This document shows positions 3-28,753 of a stretch of DNA of 28,753 nt, piece by piece. A program made the position numbers and the translations under genes. Origin of the DNA: a virus. The notes under the pieces are model-generated. The model was not told the origin of the DNA, made no database searches, and saw only the letters and a program-made list of their open reading frames with translations. Where the stretch lies: positions 1-28,753 of the IMG/VR virus record IMGVR_UViG_3300033388_001702. One strand, written 5' to 3'. Within the stretch, counting starts at the first letter, position 1, and every line of letters begins with the position of its first letter.

Positions 3-59
3 GATATAACGGTTGAGGATGCAGAATGTTTCATAGCGGATGGACTCGTAAGCCACAAT
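3..59 (+). other. C-terminal splice region of an intein in TerL
   Basis: The residues before the terminase coupling motif, ending VEDAECFIADGLVSHN, match the end of Hint/intein domains: a V.D beta strand, F.A.G.V, then the terminal His-Asn pair, followed by Thr as the +1 extein nucleophile. The remainder of the intein, including any homing endonuclease, lies upstream and cannot be judged. Inteins typically insert in conserved catalytic motifs, and this one sits right before TRW..DD. Confidence 0.9.
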
Positions 60-962
60 ACTCGATGGAATACTGATGATCTTATGGGGAGATTGATAAA
101 TCAAGCTAATTTAGAAGGTGACAAGTTCCCTTTTGATATGGAATATATAACCTTACCAGCACTAATAGAGACCGAAGAACAAAAGAAAAAAGACCCACTA
201 GGGAGAAAATTCGGTGAAGCTTTGTGGCCCAAAAGATATAATGAAAAATTATTAAATGCGGCTAAAAAAATAGTTGGTCCTTATTATTGGAATGCTGAAT
301 TTCAAGGTAACCCAACTAAACTTGGTGGAAATTTATTTAAATCACAATATTTTAGGTATTATACTATAGAAGCTTTAACATCAAATTATTTATGTTGGAG
401 AGCAGATGAGGAACAACCTATAAGAATTAGGAAAAGTGATTTAAAAATAGTTGTTATCGTTGATCCAGCTTTAGAAATGAAGAAGAAAAACGATCCATGC
501 GGTATGCTTGCTTGGGGATATTCGAGAAAATATAAGATATGGTTGCTTCTTGATAGATTTAATGATAAAATAGAACATCAGAGGGTAAATAGTATAATTA
601 AAAATTTTGCTTTTAAAAATAATGCACATTATATATTGGTTGAAAATGAAAAGATAGGAAAAATAATAGTAAAGAATTCTGCCGGAAATGACAGTATAGG
701 TGGGCAAAAAATTCCATTTAAAGAAGTTCCGACTAAGGGGTTAGATAAACATACAAGAGCTGTACCAATGGCTACTTATTGTGAAAATGAGAGAGTATTT
801 TTCCCTAGAAACTCTCCTTGGTTGATAGCATATGAAACTAATATAAAAGATTTCCCAACAGGTGGCAATGATGAAGATGCTGATTTAACAGCTTATGCGT
901 CCACAATGGAAGATAAAGTATCAATAGCTGAAATTTTAGCAATAAATAAGGGATTAAAATGA
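3..962 (+). CDS. terL: Terminase large subunit, 3' part, intein-containing precursor
   Basis: The packaging motor ATPase/nuclease that pumps and cuts phage DNA at the portal. The frame is open from base 3, so the first Met at base 84 is not the true start; the gene begins upstream of the window. Bases 3-59 read as the C-terminal end of an intein, and the mature terminase resumes at Thr (60-62) with TRWNTDDLMGRL, the ATPase coupling motif of the family. An RNase H-like nuclease domain follows, with candidate metal ligands Asp at 462 (VDPA), Glu at 642 (LVENE) and the Asp cluster at 870-884 (NDEDADLTAYAS). The stop overlaps the portal start as ATGA. The Walker A and B motifs must lie upstream. 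Family call is firm; intein call rests on the motif. Confidence 0.95.
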   Translation, partial: DITVEDAECFIADGLVSHNTRWNTDDLMGRLINQANLEGDKFPFDMEYITLPALIETEEQKKKDPLGRKFGEALWPKRYNEKLLNAAKKIVGPYYWNAEFQGNPTKLGGNLFKSQYFRYYTIEALTSNYLCWRADEEQPIRIRKSDLKIVVIVDPALEMKKKNDPCGMLAWGYSRKYKIWLLLDRFNDKIEHQRVNSIIKNFAFKNNAHYILVENEKIGKIIVKNSAGNDSIGGQKIPFKEVPTKGLDKHTRAVPMATYCENERVFFPRNSPWLIAYETNIKDFPTGGNDEDADLTAYASTMEDKVSIAEILAINKGLK

Positions 963-4105: not shown

Positions 4106-4876
4106 ATGCAAAGTTCAATGAATACCAGTTTAACCCAGGGTTTACCTGGGGGATTATATGGTTTTAATCACGACATAATTGGTAAAAATAATTATTCAAA
4201 AAAGTTAGATCAAGTTACTATCACGGCTGTGAATCTAGCGACTACTGTTACTATCAACGGTACTGCATTTACTGTTAATAGTGCAGTCGATACTAAAACA
4301 AAAACTGAATTAGCTGAATTATTGGCCGCAGCAGTAAACGCAGGGTCCGAGCCTGTTACTGCATATTTTACAGCAGCAGCAGAATTAATTACTGTAGAAT
4401 CGGATGTTGTTGGAACCACGACTACTGTTGTCGGAACCACGAATTGTAGTATAGTGGCTCAAATTGGTAATTCAGCAGCTATAGGTTTTGGTTTATTTGT
4501 ATGCCAAGATTTACTCTATATTGATGTAGCTAGAGTACCAATAGTAACAGCCGATGTTACTGCTACTGGATCACCCAGAGGGATTACGATTCATACTCAA
4601 GCTATTGAACAATTCTATCAAACTGATGGTGGAGCTGGGTATGCCCTTAATGCAGAAATGAGTATTTGTAGAAGAGGTATGGTGTGGGTTGCTGCTGAAA
4701 CCGCTATGGCAACGACTGATGATGTATTTGCAAGATATACCGTAAATGGGACAACAGTGTTAGGTGGGATTAGAAATGATGACGATACTTCAAAAGCAGT
4801 CGCAATTCCTACAGCGAGAGTTGTACGTCCAGTCACCGCTGCTGGATTATGTTTAATTGATATTAATTTACCGTAA
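4106..4876 (+). CDS. Probable capsid decoration/cement protein with inserted beta domain
   Basis: It lies between scaffold and major capsid protein, the usual place of head-stabilising proteins. The outer parts (residues 1-33 and about 119-256, with GLPGGLYGFNHDI, ARVPIVTADVTATGSPRGI and the C-terminal VVRPVTAAGLCLIDINLP) look like a small Gly/Ala/Thr-rich virion protein. Residues about 34-118 are a separate beta domain: VTINGTAFTVNSA, then an AELLAAAVNAG helix, then ITVESDVVGTTTTVVG. This domain type recurs in the stopper-like gene at 7286. Start ATG follows AGGAG. The decoration role is inferred from position and composition. Confidence 0.65.
   Translation: MQSSMNTSLTQGLPGGLYGFNHDIIGKNNYSKKLDQVTITAVNLATTVTINGTAFTVNSAVDTKTKTELAELLAAAVNAGSEPVTAYFTAAAELITVESDVVGTTTTVVGTTNCSIVAQIGNSAAIGFGLFVCQDLLYIDVARVPIVTADVTATGSPRGITIHTQAIEQFYQTDGGAGYALNAEMSICRRGMVWVAAETAMATTDDVFARYTVNGTTVLGGIRNDDDTSKAVAIPTARVVRPVTAAGLCLIDINLP
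4205..4459 (+). other. Inserted beta-sandwich domain (type 1) in decoration protein
   Basis: Encodes about 85 residues with the pattern TVTINGTAFTV, a helix with AAVNAG, then two beta strands around GTTTTV. It interrupts a shorter conserved protein and is related in pattern to residues 92-176 of the stopper-like protein at 7286. By eye the DNA is less AT-rich than the neighbouring protease and portal genes. The boundaries are approximate. Confidence 0.6.
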
Positions 4877-23232: not shown

Positions 23233-24915
23233 ATGAGTATTTGGAAGAAGATGGAAGGTTTGATTGGGGGTTCTTTGCAGTTAGGATTTACGGGAGCTAA
23301 AGTCGTAGGGTCTGGAACTGATACTGTTATGATTAAAGATAAAGATGATGGTGTTGGAGTTTTAAGTATAGATAAAGTTACTGGTTTGTCAGATTCTTCT
23401 GGGGCAACAGATGCTATAAATAAAGCTTATGTAACAAGTGGGCTAACCTGGACTATACGTGTTACACCAGTAGATAATGATTGGCGTAGTATTTGTTATG
23501 GAGATGGTTTATTTGTAGTTGTTGCAACTACAGGAACAGACAATAGAGTAATGACTTCACCTGATGGTATTAATTGGACTATACGTGTTACACCAGTAGA
23601 TAATGATTGGCGTAGTATTTGTTATGGTTATGGTTTATTTGTAGCTGTTTCCGATACAGGTACAGACGATAGAGTAATGACTTCACCTGATGGTATTAAT
23701 TGGACTATACGTGTTACACCAGTAGATAATAATTGGCATAGTGTAACTTATGGTGGCGGTTTATTTGTAGCTGTTGCTTATTCTGGTACAGACAATAGAG
23801 TAATGACTTCACCTGATGGAATTAATTGGACTATACGTGTTACACCAGAAGATAATGATTGGCGTAGTATTTGTTATGGAAATGGCCTATTCGTAGCTGT
23901 TGCCAATTCAGGTACAGACAATAGAGTAATGACTTCACCTGATGGTATTAATTGGACTATACGTGTTACACCAGAAGATAATAATTGGCATGGTGTTTGT
24001 TATGGTAATGGTTTGTTTGTAGCGGTTGCACTTACGGGAACAGACGATAGAGTAATGACTTCACCTGATGGAATTAATTGGACTATACGTGTTACACCAG
24101 AAGATAATGAGTGGCATGGTGTTTATTATGGTAATGGTTTGTTTGTAGCGGTTGCACTTACGGGAACAGACGATAGAGTAATGACTTCACCTGATGGTAT
24201 TAATTGGACTATACGTGTTACACCAGAAGATAATAATTGGCAAAATGTTTGTTATGGAAATGGCCTATTCGTAGCTGTTGCTTATTCAGGTACAGATAAT
24301 AGAGTAATGACTTCCGGTAAAACAGAATATACTCCAAATCGCTATAATAATATATATCAAGGTGGTATGACTCTTGCTGGACCATTAGAATTAATTGGAG
24401 ACGGAGAAGTCCAAAAAGAAATTACAATAGGGGCCGCGAGTTGGCATTTGGGTTCAACGTCTCCTGCCGAAATTTGGGTCGGCCTTGGATATGCACTAGA
24501 GTTTGCCCAGGGCACTGAACAACATGTTCATTATATAAGAAAGATACCTACTGACTATAAAGCCGGTACAGATATTGAGTTTATTGTTTGTTGGAGTTTT
24601 GACACTGAAGAAGCTGATCATTATGTAATGTGGGAATTAAGTTACCTTTCTCTTGCTTCTGGCGAAGATCCCGCAGGAGCCGGTACAAATATATGGCAAT
24701 CGTCACTTGTGACAACAGCAGATGGCGACGTGAGTGAAGATAAATTAATATGTACTAAATTCGGTACAGATCTTACAGGTTTAGCGGCAGATGATATTTT
24801 AATATTAAAATTTAATAGAGATTCAGATGATACGCATGGAACAGATAATTTAAATCAGGGTGCGCGACTTCATTCTATTCATTTACATTATATTTCTGAT
24901 AAGTTAGGAACCTAA
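23233..24915 (+). CDS. Tail-fibre-like protein with seven-bladed propeller of near-identical repeats
   Basis: A 560-residue probable receptor-binding virion protein. Residues 1-46 (IWKKMEGLIGGSLQLGFTGAKVVGSGTDTV) form an N-terminal module shared with the protein at 26143. A linker (GLSDSSGATDAINKAYV) typical of fibres follows. From Trp at base 23449 come seven repeats of 42 residues (WTIRVTP.DN.W....YG.GLFVAV...GTD.RVMTSPDGIN), fitting a seven-bladed propeller of the sialidase-like type. The C-terminal part (bases 24418-24912) is a beta-rich domain homologous to the protein at 26936 (IPTDY..., CWSFDTEEADHYVMWELSYL, YISDKLGT). The ATG at 23233 has AAGGG upstream; the TTG at 23215 is rejected. 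Confidence 0.87.
   Translation: MSIWKKMEGLIGGSLQLGFTGAKVVGSGTDTVMIKDKDDGVGVLSIDKVTGLSDSSGATDAINKAYVTSGLTWTIRVTPVDNDWRSICYGDGLFVVVATTGTDNRVMTSPDGINWTIRVTPVDNDWRSICYGYGLFVAVSDTGTDDRVMTSPDGINWTIRVTPVDNNWHSVTYGGGLFVAVAYSGTDNRVMTSPDGINWTIRVTPEDNDWRSICYGNGLFVAVANSGTDNRVMTSPDGINWTIRVTPEDNNWHGVCYGNGLFVAVALTGTDDRVMTSPDGINWTIRVTPEDNEWHGVYYGNGLFVAVALTGTDDRVMTSPDGINWTIRVTPEDNNWQNVCYGNGLFVAVAYSGTDNRVMTSGKTEYTPNRYNNIYQGGMTLAGPLELIGDGEVQKEITIGAASWHLGSTSPAEIWVGLGYALEFAQGTEQHVHYIRKIPTDYKAGTDIEFIVCWSFDTEEADHYVMWELSYLSLASGEDPAGAGTNIWQSSLVTTADGDVSEDKLICTKFGTDLTGLAADDILILKFNRDSDDTHGTDNLNQGARLHSIHLHYISDKLGT
23449..24315 (+). repeat. Tandem array, 126-bp unit, seven copies (last one shortened)
   Basis: Units begin at 23449, 23575, 23701, 23827, 23953, 24079 and 24205; the seventh ends after TS at 24315. 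The segment GACTTCACCTGATGG and the following TTAATTGGACTATACGTG run are nearly base-identical in all copies, third positions included, while changes cluster in two short stretches of each unit. Units 5 and 6 are the closest pair; units 4 and 7 also share a distinct block (GGAAATGGCCTATTCGTAGC). Confidence 0.95.
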
Positions 24916-24939
24916 AATTAAAAATAAAGAAAATAAATT

Positions 24940-25025
24940 ATGGGGAATTCATGAAAGACTATAAGCACGGATAGGTTATTTTTTAACCGAAACCAGATTA
25001 CCCCATCGTCTGTTTTCCGTGCTTA
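24940..25025 (+). other. Structured leader before the gene at 25050, possible pseudoknot
   Basis: Three pairings are seen: 24962-24971 with 25016-25025 (10 bp, perfect, TAAGCACGGA), a small hairpin 24974-24978 with 24984-24988 over a T loop, and 24940-24945 with 25001-25006 (ATGGGG/CCCCAT). The first and third cross, as in a pseudoknot. A seven-codon frame (24951-24974) behind GGGGAA runs through the first arm. No T-run follows, so it is not a plain terminator. Confidence 0.45.
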
Positions 25026-25049
25026 CAATAAATAAAAAGGAATAATAAA

Positions 25050-25358
25050 ATGAAAGATCCATCAGGGCAATTTAACTCAAATATTATACGAGAATCAATC
25101 AAAGCTTTTGGTGTTGTTCCGGTTGCTTATGAAACACTAATTGATTTAACATCTGCATATACCGGGTATATAAATACACATCTAATTATCACTAATAGTT
25201 TAGATGAAGATGTTACCATTAAAATAGGTGATAACGAAATAACAGTTCAAGCTTTTAAAGATACATGGATGGATGGTTTAAGATATGATGGTATTATTCA
25301 ATATAAATATAAAACAGCCCCTTCAACTGAAGGTAGTTTACAAATAGTATGTTATTAA
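25050..25358 (+). CDS. Small beta-rich virion-like protein, family C (paralogue of 27627)
   Basis: A 102-residue protein whose residues about 26-102 align along their whole length with the protein at 27627: LIDLTSAYT..., NSLDEDVTIKIGDNEITV and YDGIIQYKYKTAPSTEGSLQIV are shared with small changes. The pattern suggests a single beta-sandwich. I do not recognise a named family. Its place between fibre genes suggests a fibre or decoration part. Start follows AAAAAGG; the leader upstream is structured. Confidence 0.8.
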   Translation: MKDPSGQFNSNIIRESIKAFGVVPVAYETLIDLTSAYTGYINTHLIITNSLDEDVTIKIGDNEITVQAFKDTWMDGLRYDGIIQYKYKTAPSTEGSLQIVCY

Positions 25359-25367
25359 GGAAATATA

Positions 25368-25736
25368 ATGTCACACGTACAAGATAATAAATTAGTTGCT
25401 TCTGATGTTAATCAAAAAACTTTTTGCGAAGAAGCCACTTTTGCTGATGCTGAAGTAGTGATTAAAAATGCTAAAGCCGGTGACACTTTAACAGAATTTG
25501 AAATAGATGTTAGCATTGTCTTTGATGGGGCTGCTCCACTGGCTAGTATTGGGATTGATTCAAACCACGAAAAATATCTATCGGAGGTACAAAATGATAT
25601 ACTATCAATAGGTACTTATGTGGTAGAAAATACAACAATATTAACTATAAATGAAACTATTAAAGTATATATAACTCCTGATGGATCTACACAAGGGCAA
25701 TTAAGCGCATCTGTAAGATTTTATGATACAGAATAG
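25368..25736 (+). CDS. Small beta-rich virion-like protein, family B, copy 1
   Basis: A 122-residue protein, tandem paralogue of the next gene. The core IKNAKAGDTLTEFEIDVSIVFDGAAPLASIGID..HEKYLSEVQ and the end TIKVYITPDGSTQG.L are shared. The same core occurs at the C-terminus of the protein at 26143 (VTEVFDNDATPATVEIGITG..GKYV), so this is a mobile domain family found both alone and fused. A virion decoration or fibre-tip role is inferred only from context. Start follows AAGGAA. Confidence 0.8.
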   Translation: MSHVQDNKLVASDVNQKTFCEEATFADAEVVIKNAKAGDTLTEFEIDVSIVFDGAAPLASIGIDSNHEKYLSEVQNDILSIGTYVVENTTILTINETIKVYITPDGSTQGQLSASVRFYDTE

Positions 25737-25754
25737 CGAAAATAAGGAAATAAA

Positions 25755-26117
25755 ATGTCAAGAGTGTTACCGAATAAATTAGTACCATCATCAGTCCCTC
25801 AAGAAGATACAGTTGATGTAATATTTTCTGATTCCCCAACGGTTATTAAGAACGCCTTATCTGGGGATACTTTAAGTGAGTTTGAAATAGAAGTTACAAC
25901 AATTTTTGATGGAGCTGCACCAGCGGCAAGCATAGGCATCGACGCCGATCATGAAAAATACTTAACGGAAGCTCAATGTTATCTTTTAAGCAAAGGGAAG
26001 TACATAATTGAAGATACAAATATTCTATCTTCAAATGAAACAATTAAAGTTTACTTAACCCCTGATGGATCTACTCAAGGGGCCTTAACCGCAAAGGTTA
26101 GATATTTGGATACATAA
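25755..26117 (+). CDS. Small beta-rich virion-like protein, family B, copy 2
   Basis: A 120-residue tandem paralogue of the preceding gene: VIKNALSGDTLSEFEIEV, IFDGAAPAASIGIDADHEKYL and ETIKVYLTPDGSTQGALTAKVRYLDT align without gaps in the core. The N-termini and several surface-type positions differ, and the DNA has diverged beyond a recent duplication. Both copies start with MS.V..NKLV. Function unknown; start follows AAGGAA. Confidence 0.8.
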   Translation: MSRVLPNKLVPSSVPQEDTVDVIFSDSPTVIKNALSGDTLSEFEIEVTTIFDGAAPAASIGIDADHEKYLTEAQCYLLSKGKYIIEDTNILSSNETIKVYLTPDGSTQGALTAKVRYLDT

Positions 26118-26142
26118 ACCCTAAAAATAAGGAGGAATAAAA

Positions 26143-26805
26143 ATGGGTGTATGGAAAAATATAATTGGTTTAATAGGCAATACTCTTCAAATGAATTTTA
26201 CTGGTCCTAAAATTGTTGGTAGTAGCACTGATACTGTTACTATTACTAGTAGTACGGATGGTGATGGAAAATTAGTCTCCGTAGCGGCCAATCATGAGTC
26301 GATTGAAGTTTATGATGGAACTTCGAGAACGACAACTATCACAATGGCTGGTAGTGGCGGCGGTGATATCACATTAGTATTACCAAATAATGATGGTGAT
26401 GCTAACAATGCTCTTACGACTGATGGTTCTGGTAATCTTTCTTGGACTGATTTAGATTCTGTTGCTGCTAAAATTTTAACTCTTAATTTTGGTGATGGGG
26501 CGGAGCAAAGTTTGGCTCCATCGGTCGCTGCGCGATACATTGACAGGATAATTATTAAAGTTACTGAGGTTTTCGATAACGATGCAACCCCAGCAACAGT
26601 AGAAATCGGAATAACTGGAACAACTGGTAAATATGTCGCTACTACTGATGTAGACCTTGGTACTGTCGGTATATACAGTGTTGATGTTGCTAATTATGAA
26701 TCTGGTGCTGAAGAACTTCTTGCTACTTTTGTCGCTGGCAGTGCAGCTTCAACGGGTATTGCAGAAATAGTTTTAGTACAATGTTTTCCAACTGTAACTG
26801 CATAA
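26143..26805 (+). CDS. Fibre-like protein: family A N-terminus plus family B C-terminus
   Basis: A 220-residue chimera. Residues 1-48 (VWKNIIGLIGNTLQMNFTGPKIVGSSTDTVTI) match the N-terminal module of the propeller fibre at 23233, probably the part that attaches to the virion. A middle stretch (TITMAGSGGGDITLVLPNND, LTTDGSGNLSWTDLDS) is a common fibre segment. Residues about 108-220 match the family B domain of the two preceding genes (IIIKVTEVFDNDATPATVEIGI, GKYV). Very strong ribosome binding site AAGGAGG. It links the small genes to the fibre system. Confidence 0.8.
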   Translation: MGVWKNIIGLIGNTLQMNFTGPKIVGSSTDTVTITSSTDGDGKLVSVAANHESIEVYDGTSRTTTITMAGSGGGDITLVLPNNDGDANNALTTDGSGNLSWTDLDSVAAKILTLNFGDGAEQSLAPSVAARYIDRIIIKVTEVFDNDATPATVEIGITGTTGKYVATTDVDLGTVGIYSVDVANYESGAEELLATFVAGSAASTGIAEIVLVQCFPTVTA

Positions 26806-26822
26806 TTTAATAATAATATAAT

Positions 26823-26870
26823 TTAAATAACGGTAGCTAATAAAACTTATCGTTGGTTGCCGTTATTTAA
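26823..26870 (+). other. 11-bp inverted repeat upstream of 26936
   Basis: Bases 26823-26833 (TTAAATAACGG) are the reverse complement of 26860-26870, and the stem can extend inward by four pairs with two G-U wobbles. No T-run follows. It may be a weak terminator or a leader structure for the next gene. Confidence 0.45.
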
Positions 26871-26935
26871 CAAACGAAGAAGGTTAGAATTTAAGAATGA
26901 TTGATCGTAAACAATTTAATAGAAAGGGTTGTATT

Positions 26936-27580
26936 ATGAATAAAAAATTAGCAACTATTGTAACTGTTTTATTAGTAACAATGGCTTTCTTTTGCTTATT
27001 CCCTATCAATGAAACCAAATCGAGCAGCGTATCGGACAACGTAAGTACCGGGATAATATTAGAAAGTGTTGCAAGAGTAAAACAAATCGAATGCATAAAT
27101 GCAAATGGATTTAGATTGCCTACGACTAATCCGGCAGTGCTTACAGATTTCGGGTCCGGGTCAGTCCTCGTGTTCGCTGATGAAACAGCGGATTATGATA
27201 ATAGTAGGATGTCGCTTAAAGTACCGAAGGATATAGACTCAACAGTTCAGCCATATCTTCAACTTGATTGGTCCTGCGACGCCGCCACAGACGATATTAA
27301 CGTAAGGTGGGAAATAATATATATATGGCTAGCGGAAGATGAAACAAGTGATGCAACATCAGATGCTACGATCACGGGAGATTATACTATAAGTGATGTA
27401 ACTAAAGGATTGGTCGAGTCCGATATTCAATTATCTAATTTTTTATCTACCGATAAATATTTACATGTAAACATAGCTAGACGTTCTGATGCAACACAAG
27501 ATACTTCTGATGGGCAAAACGCTAATATCTTTGGGGCCTGTTTATATTATACTAAGGATAGGCTTGGTGAACCGTTATAA
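26936..27580 (+). CDS. Exported or membrane-anchored protein with fibre C-terminal domain (family D)
   Basis: The ATG at 26936 has GAAAGGG 7 nt upstream and gives MNKKLATIVTVLLVTMAFFC, a basic start plus hydrophobic segment that looks like a signal peptide or anchor; an in-frame ATG at 26897 would add 13 polar residues and has a poor site. There is no clear lipobox. Residues about 50-214 match the C-terminal domain of the propeller fibre at 23233: KVPKDIDST, LDWSCDAATDDINVRWEIIYIWLA, VNIARRSDA and the closing CLYYTKDRLG. A fibre domain behind an export signal is unusual. Bases about 27100-27300 look richer in G+C than the rest. Confidence 0.78.
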   Translation: MNKKLATIVTVLLVTMAFFCLFPINETKSSSVSDNVSTGIILESVARVKQIECINANGFRLPTTNPAVLTDFGSGSVLVFADETADYDNSRMSLKVPKDIDSTVQPYLQLDWSCDAATDDINVRWEIIYIWLAEDETSDATSDATITGDYTISDVTKGLVESDIQLSNFLSTDKYLHVNIARRSDATQDTSDGQNANIFGACLYYTKDRLGEPL

Positions 27581-27626
27581 TAAAATATTATTTTATAAAC
27601 AAATATAAAACAAGGAGTTAGATAAA

Positions 27627-27905
27627 ATGATAACTGTTAATAAAATTAAAAGTTCCGATGTTGCTTATGGTAGTGTTCCAGCTTCATTAACGGAATTAAT
27701 TGATCTTGGAACCGTGTATACGTATAATCATATTGTAATTATGAGTAGTTTAGATACCAGTGTAACTGTAAAAATAGGGGATAATGAAATAGTTATTCCA
27801 GCTAATAAAAATATTGTGCTTGATAATGTGCCATATAATGGTGTCATAAGTTACAAATATAATTCAGCCCCAGGATCAGGGAATTTAAATATTATATATT
27901 CTTAA
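27627..27905 (+). CDS. Small beta-rich protein, family C (paralogue of 25050)
   Basis: A 92-residue protein with TELIDLGTVYTYNHIVIMSSLDTSVTVKIGDNEI and YNGVISYKYNSAPGSGNLNII, aligned with the protein at 25050 over nearly its whole length. No signal peptide. It is the last gene before the operon terminator. Function unknown; a fibre or decoration role is inferred from its family members. Start follows AAGGAG. Confidence 0.8.
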   Translation: MITVNKIKSSDVAYGSVPASLTELIDLGTVYTYNHIVIMSSLDTSVTVKIGDNEIVIPANKNIVLDNVPYNGVISYKYNSAPGSGNLNIIYS

Positions 27906-27934: not shown

Positions 27935-27976
27935 ATACGGCTTTTCAAGAGGATAAAATGAAAAGCCGTATTTTTT
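27935..27976 (+). terminator. Intrinsic terminator of the late operon
   Basis: A perfect 13-bp stem (27935-27947 with 27959-27971, ATACGGCTTTTCA) with an 11-nt loop, followed by a run of T to 27976. It is the only structure in the window with all the parts of a Rho-independent terminator, and it ends the phage gene series. The next gene's ribosome binding site begins only 8 nt later. Confidence 0.9.
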
Positions 27977-28000: not shown

Positions 28001-28753
28001 ATGTTAAAACGACGATATGTTGTAATTATCTGTTTTTTAATTTTACTTGCAGGAATTAGAGAAGTCCAAGGAAAGGAAATAAATGAAATAGAAAAGTGGG
28101 AAACTCGTGGAGAATTTTCTTATGCAAATACTAACGGTATTATTGAAACGCAAACTCTATCAAGTAAAATTGAAACAAAAAAGGAAACAGAAAAAGTTAG
28201 GCATTATATGAATAGTAATATTCAATATGGAGAACATTATAATCATATTAATAATACATATGAGAAGACAGTAAATAAATGGATATTAAATTATAGACAT
28301 GAAAGAATGTTTTCAGAAAAATTATTTTACTTTTCGTCTATTGAATATATCAGAAATGAATTCTCAGGTTATGATTATAATATTTTGGTTGGTCCTGGGT
28401 TGGGTTATGATATTATAAAAACAAAAAAACATTGCCTAAAATCGTTACTATCTACTCTTTATATTTATGATAATTTTAAAGAATTAGAAAATAATAACAA
28501 AGAAGATTCATATAGCTCAGAAAAAATGGCCATTAAGTATATATGGTATATTTCTGAAGATTTTATATTTAAAAATAATATAGATTATTTACATTCATTT
28601 AAAGAAAATAAAAAATATATTATTAATTCTAAAACAATATTTGAAATGAAAATAAATACTGCTATTTCGTTAGGATTAAGTTATATCATAAATTATCAAA
28701 ACAACCCTTCATCTTCATATAAAAATATGAAAAATACAGAAAAGACTTTTTTA
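28001..28753 (+). CDS. DUF481-like outer-membrane protein precursor, 3' end missing
   Basis: The frame is open from ATG 28001 to the last base (251 codons). Residues 1-24 (MLKRRYVVIICFLILLAG...VQG) are a signal peptide. The mature part starts WETRGEFSYANTNGIIETQTL and continues with alternating aromatic strands; FSGYDYNILVGPGLGYDIIKT (about residues 125-145) and TAISLGLSYIINYQNNP near the end fit DUF481 (YdiY-like) proteins, predicted outer-membrane beta-barrels. Since the family ends soon after such a motif, little is probably missing. AAAAAGG lies 10 nt upstream. It may be a phage-carried accessory gene or the first host gene after a prophage. The family call is by pattern. Confidence 0.7.
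   Translation, partial: MLKRRYVVIICFLILLAGIREVQGKEINEIEKWETRGEFSYANTNGIIETQTLSSKIETKKETEKVRHYMNSNIQYGEHYNHINNTYEKTVNKWILNYRHERMFSEKLFYFSSIEYIRNEFSGYDYNILVGPGLGYDIIKTKKHCLKSLLSTLYIYDNFKELENNNKEDSYSSEKMAIKYIWYISEDFIFKNNIDYLHSFKENKKYIINSKTIFEMKINTAISLGLSYIINYQNNPSSSYKNMKNTEKTFL

Follow-up and report, generated by a model that had tools for sequence, protein, structure and literature searches.

The window, by which we mean the whole stretch of DNA that was analyzed, corresponds to a 28,753-base virus record in IMG/VR. It carries the late region of a contractile-tailed phage, comprising terminase, portal, cement, major capsid protein, sheath, tape measure, baseplate and fibre genes and, directly after the baseplate and fibre genes, a block of small genes (Table 1); some gene names in the window were assigned by inspection of translations. 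The major capsid protein is 36% identical to its counterpart in Faecalibacterium phage Brigit. Within the block, a long fibre gene is followed by a structured RNA, by genes encoding small proteins assembled from a few recurring domains and by a gene for a DUF481 outer-membrane barrel, and each block gene has its own start preceded by a plausible ribosome-binding site. Two repeat blocks of the long fibre are 86-91% identical at the DNA level to an earlier stretch, and hence the repeats appear to have expanded recently. The DUF481 gene suggests a Gram-negative host. Genome scans for the host with AB and with the DUF2612 protein returned no close prophage and only a 38% match in Brevibacillus. 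No tRNA was detected, and a promoter scan gave a count about equal to that expected from shuffled sequence.

Table 1. Features of the block and of the late region in the window, together with related features in other phages; positions refer to the sequence named in the first column.
Sequence	Positions	Strand	Feature	Evidence
Window	3-62	+	terminase large-subunit gene, truncated start, intein C-terminal splicing region	TIGR01443 above cut-off
Window	4106-4876		capsid cement gene PF22758, adjoining the capsid gene	Pfam match
Window	23233-24915	+	long fibre: A N-terminus, 42-aa repeats, D at C-terminus (about aa 390-560)	comparisons, profiles
Window	~23449-24330	+	six to seven 42-aa repeats of the long fibre
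Window	24963-25024	+	structured RNA, three-way junction, 62 nt	folding, covariation
Window	25050-25358	+	C: single jelly-roll head, KDPxGQF N-terminus	shuffles, profiles, fold model
Window	25368-25736	+	B1: single B domain, phrog_4042	shuffles, profiles
Window	25755-26117	+	B2: single B domain with 61% identity to B1	comparison, profiles
Window	26143-26805	+	AB: A N-terminus, linker with DGSGNLSW motif, C-terminal B domain	shuffles, profiles
Window	26823-26870	+	hairpin, 19-bp stem, after AB and before SP-D, at a block border and possibly a terminator	folding
Window	26936-27580	+	SP-D: hydrophobic signal-type N-terminus and D domain, CBM-like beta-sandwich model	profiles, model
Window	27627-27905	+	C': paralogue of C	profiles, tree
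Window	27935-27976	+	hairpin then U run between C' and DUF481, intrinsic-terminator-like	folding
Window	28001-28753	+	DUF481 outer-membrane beta-barrel gene, signal-type N-terminus, runs off contig end	PF04338
L005	7486-7546		structured RNA
L023	5514-5575		structured RNA
L027	14123-14189		structured RNA
L009	7187-7249		structured RNA
L004	7596-7648		structured RNA
L005	8921-8966		hairpin between C' and DUF481
L005	8988-9764		DUF481 barrel with signal-type N-terminus
L005	12353-13321	-	sigma-70-like factor (apparent)	translation inspection
L023	7122-8084	-	sigma-70-like factor (apparent)	translation inspection
L027	16661-17485	-	sigma-70-like factor (apparent)	translation inspection
L019 (Vibrio phage 1.042.O)	6698-6700		in-frame stop in fibre gene, leaving a separate short B open reading frame

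A preliminary description of this DNA had proposed that four domain families, A, B, C and D, recur here alone, in tandem and fused. All of the open reading frames it named are present in this distal-tail region, the parts do occur in each of these arrangements, and an all-against-all comparison recovered the same four families. In shuffle tests the A parts of the long fibre and AB scored 130 against a shuffled mean of 27, C and C' 192 against 30, and the D parts of the long fibre and SP-D 114 against 33, with none of 2000 shuffles reaching the score in any of the three. The two single B proteins are related at z=59 and score 57 (B1) and 56 (B2) against the C-terminus of AB, where shuffles average about 31 and reach the score in 0 and 3 of 2000, respectively. 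For all cross-family pairs |z| was at most 1.7, and profile-profile comparison revealed no relation between A, B, C and D. Leave-one-out profiles, built without their target and searched against real and reversed open reading frames, placed every homology at E ≤1e-4, with best decoys at 0.07-3. The A profile from the fibres found AB at 8e-15 (4e-13 in the reverse direction), the C profile found C' at 3e-29, the exported-D profile found the C-terminus of the long fibre at 1e-5, and with the single-B profile the C-terminus of AB was recovered at 1e-4, its homologue in L004 at 2e-12. The weakest link, that of B to AB, is backed also by the phrog_4042 profile, which matches all three B proteins (B1, E 2e-10; B2, E 2e-9; AB, E 0.003). 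Family A extends over the first ~45-60 residues only, and the fragments are common to proteins with otherwise unrelated remainders: A to the long fibre and AB, D to the long fibre and SP-D, B to AB and the single-B genes. The C-terminal parts of the fibres of L005 and L023 were considered as further D domains and rejected as unproven, with leave-one-out E values of 0.13 and 1.6 and an hhalign probability of 7%. Profile searches of PDB sequences with B, C and D found nothing; in Pfam, C had no match, B none above cut-off, and the PF22758 cement family matched neither. A search of 50,697 phage genomes gave no match, or marginal ones at most, for C, D, DUF481 and the L005 fibre.

Gene order was read from profiles in six uncultured phages, several of whose contigs are fragments: the window and five others (L005, L023, L027, L009 and L004) found by scans with the small proteins and the neighbouring DUF2612 protein. 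Writing F for a 20937-type fibre, X for another fibre type, CC for a small gene between and TM for a two-helix end gene, the window reads F-CC-[A..repeats..D]-RNA-C-B-B-AB-SPD-C'-DUF481. The others read F-CC-[X]-RNA-C-SPD-C'-DUF481-TM (L005), F-CC-[X]-RNA-C-TM (L023), F-CC-[X-like]-g13825-RNA-C-SPD-C'-TM (L027), F-CC-[A..]-LamG-RNA-C-B-AB-TM (L009) and F-[A..beta-helix]-kelch-RNA-C-B-B-AB (L004). The order of the cassette is thus constant across all six, C is present in every one, and the optional sub-blocks, B-B-AB (or B-AB), SP-D-C' and DUF481, are present or absent as wholes. AB and B are confined to the three phages whose long fibre carries an A N-terminus. Beyond the block, on the opposite strand, L005, L023 and L027 seemingly encode a sigma-70-like factor. 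A search for invertible segments returned short AT-rich or hairpin pairs only, and no near-identical donor copy was found, DNA similarity between copies being at most about 69% over long stretches. The suggestion that the region behaves as a parts store is not borne out: the order is fixed, C is universal, sub-blocks come and go whole, and the genes are intact and under purifying selection.

In phylogenetic trees C' separates from C as a clade of its own (support 99/97), exported D occupies one side of the D tree (89/87, with long branches) and the AB heads group together to the exclusion of single B (100/100); the tree gives no firm order for the B1/B2 duplications. Between relatives, dN/dS lies at 0.10-0.39 for all parts and between C and C' at 0.40, values that are rough since synonymous sites are near saturation. 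Domain swapping is visible at A, which is joined to D in the long fibre and to B in AB. Fixed order, tree clades, dN/dS and the limited DNA similarity between copies together indicate that the block, as far as its sequences record, arose by duplication and by swapping of N- and C-terminal parts followed by stable inheritance, and is not a pool of exchangeable donors. The small genes could alternatively be decaying or split remnants of longer fibres that have no function of their own, and the fibre gene of Vibrio phage 1.042.O is naturally interrupted by an in-frame stop shortly before its B part. Conserved order, starts and ribosome sites and dN/dS of 0.1-0.4 speak against decay, and we consider this explanation very improbable.

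Folding of the gaps between genes revealed the same three-way junction before C in the related phages. Two stretches of it are invariant: the first junction has AUAGG, and the last loop has CCCC(A/G)UC. A covariance model, R1, built from the first three RNA sequences aligned without structure, retrieved the held-out copies in the window (4e-12), L027 (5e-11) and L004 (8e-7) and nothing else convincing; searches of whole records gave one convincing copy per phage, always directly upstream of C (n=6). Both sides have changed in 11 of 19 pairs and no shuffle reaches the covariation score, the alignment having been fitted to the model, which favours the structure. In the structure 96.4% of cells pair, and sliding the partner strand by 1-3 columns lowers this share to 34-41%. 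Each copy is on average more stable than its own shuffles (z -2.0 to -4.8), four of the six fold straight into the shape, and about seven G-U cells fall on the + strand, as expected for RNA made in the direction of the genes. The window copy had no match in Rfam 15 at gathering score; the best sub-threshold matches on or near it, DUF2815 RNA (RF03084) and ctRNA_pND324 (RF00238), with E values of 5.7 and 0.3, are far below their gathering scores and share no structure with it. A literature search for phage tail RNA motifs returned nothing relevant.

Because the upstream neighbour differs in nearly every phage while RNA and C are constant, a cis element of C is favoured, and the RNA would most likely act in cis on expression of C and later genes. 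It is possible, if less probable, that the RNA is not a leader of C and instead acts in trans or belongs to the upstream fibre transcript as a 3'-end or processing element. In keeping with this, the element has a gene on either side in each of the six phages, and the stop codon of the upstream gene falls inside it in L009 and abuts it in L004. However, the gene upstream may be a repeat-D fibre, an X fibre, g13825, LamG or kelch, the gene downstream is always C, and no U run follows the element. A more far-reaching proposal is that this RNA class marks the border between exchangeable fibres and constant heads and sets head expression whatever fibre lies upstream, with the exported head masking the receptor on the infected cell; we hold this to be improbable.

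What the small proteins do may be judged from where their domains recur. Vibrio phages encode 398-399-residue proteins that have B as their C-terminal domain and also match families of tail fibres; gp74 of EBPR siphovirus 2, near a tail gene, ends in D; and in three phages the long fibre begins with A. Similar domains hence exist in other viruses, where B and D end larger fibre-type proteins. As B terminates Vibrio-phage fibres and D a protein near a siphovirus tail gene, a tail-tip or adhesin role for the block proteins is most likely on present homology. The first 16 residues of the single-B proteins resemble those of the X fibres in L005 and L023, which rank 5 and 6 among 775 N-termini, next below the B proteins themselves, a likeness noticed before it was tested and so only suggestive. 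Of the earlier reading of the region as fibre tips or decoration drawn from a store, the first half is favoured by the reuse of parts and by the fibre-type ends of B and D; the freely shuffled store is not.

The model of C is a small jelly roll (pLDDT 71), a fold common to many small uncharacterized phage proteins. Cement, turret and fibre-tip proteins are all among its solved neighbours and score alike, and thus the C fold alone does not decide location. Could C and B be capsid decoration or turret proteins rather than tail-tip proteins? The C fold resembles the cement and turret proteins of KHP40, Pam1, PR772 and HFTV1 about as well as it does fibre tips. Yet the C and B genes occupy the distal extreme of the tail-fibre region, with 20 kb separating them from the capsid gene; the latter already has a canonical cement gene next to it, and B and A are fibre-type domains. 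We therefore regard a capsid location as unlikely and retain the tail tip. The D model is a CBM-type beta sandwich (Z 11 to CBM35, pLDDT 66), possibly slightly polluted by the unproven L005 and L023 fibre rows in the alignment given to AlphaFold. From this CBM-type fold we infer that D may bind sugar.

At their N-terminus SP-D in the window and its relatives in L005 and L027 have a basic end together with a run of 15 residues at Kyte-Doolittle hydropathy 2.5-3.05, and this N-terminus, the start and the ribosome site are conserved in the three phages. The preliminary description mentions neither this N-terminus nor the RNA. None of the other small cassette proteins (C, B, AB, C') shows such an N-terminus, and signal-type N-termini in the block are limited to SP-D and DUF481. 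SP-D is directly followed by C' in three of three phages, with the DUF481 barrel after them in two. The barrel of the window matches PF04338 at 108.9 bits (cut-off 21.1, E 5e-31); it had no tblastn match in the 50,697 phage genomes, and a literature search for DUF481 in phages yielded nothing relevant. The hairpin between C' and DUF481 has a near-identical core in the window and L005, and a U run follows the window copy. SP-D is thus best described as a predicted export version of the fibre head. A lipobox was sought at its N-terminus, where no Cys is conserved in the three phages, in contrast to lipoproteins of the Llp/Cor type. Cor and lambda Lom are exported superinfection-exclusion proteins, and lom and cor lie near host-range tail genes.

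These features could also signify a late-operon 'moron' that alters the envelope of the infected cell, in which SP-D binds glycans or receptor and blocks superinfection or re-adsorption to debris, with help from the barrel. The restriction of signal-type N-termini to SP-D and DUF481 and the strength of the DUF481 match (E 5e-31) would fit, as would the hairpin that sets the sub-block off in the window, its presence or absence as a block, and the precedent of T5 Llp, an exported superinfection-exclusion protein (PMC9586334). Nevertheless, SP-D lacks a lipobox and its export is itself predicted, C' has no export signal, L005 and L027 carry SP-D though their own fibres have no proven D, and L027 has no DUF481; we thus consider this account somewhat unlikely. 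A literature search for free tail-fibre decoys found nothing.

Taken together, the block is rather probably a distal host-attachment kit, in which heads, cis RNA and exported SP-D sub-block form parts of one explanation. An exchangeable long fibre would lie upstream, and the structured RNA would open a constant part consisting of C, to which B, B and AB are added in some phages. The small proteins would be very short fibres in which a beta-sandwich head is preceded by a brief docking segment at the N-terminus; this segment can be of the A type common to the long fibre. Copies would have come from gene duplication (B1/B2, C/C', D/SP-D) and from the joining of N-termini to different C-terminal heads, each copy then being fixed and kept by selection. 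SP-D, C' and, in two phages, the barrel would probably act on the envelope of the infected cell rather than in the virion. Against this explanation count the near-absence of relatives of C, D and DUF481 from the 50,697 phage genomes, the capsid proteins among the fold neighbours of C, the middling confidence of the C and D models and the presence of SP-D in phages with no provable D in their own fibre.

The preliminary description knew of no system with this layout, which is too strong a statement, since domain mosaicism of receptor-binding proteins is well documented: their N- and C-terminal parts are exchanged in several combinations (Smug et al. 2023, PMC10684548). The pairing of A with D and of A with B is of this kind; unlike in that mosaicism, the heads of the block also exist as separate one-domain genes, in fixed order, within one phage. 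Fibres of Vibrio phages (e.g. 1.123.O, L020) carry the phrog_4042 B domain by profile as the C-terminus of a ~399-residue fibre, whereas B in the block is also a free protein of ~120 residues, in tandem. The mosaic adhesive trimer (MAT) fibres of Bdellovibrio bear exchanged beta-sandwich tips on long beta-helix fibres (PMC10769870). In a comparison covering the Bd2133 tip fold and the C model only, the two resemble each other at Z 7.6-7.7, which may reflect only a common arrangement; MAT tips, however, are fused to bacterial beta-helix fibres, and C has no sequence match to them. T5 Llp is an exported phage protein, as SP-D is predicted to be (PMC9586334), but SP-D, a paralogue of the fibre head of the same phage, is no lipoprotein and is accompanied by a DUF481 barrel. 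Distinctive here are the keeping of heads as one-domain genes in a fixed-order block, the export-type N-terminus on one head and an undescribed structured RNA. The block shows candidate receptor-binding heads that are kept as conserved, separate genes of one domain each and not only at the ends of long fibres, and it offers a simple natural system in which to ask whether phages decorate their tails with free heads. If the RNA controls C, it would constitute a regulatory RNA for tail-tip composition, and its strong covariation makes it a testable leader candidate; SP-D, in turn, makes it possible to test directly whether a phage masks the receptor with a tip domain of its own.
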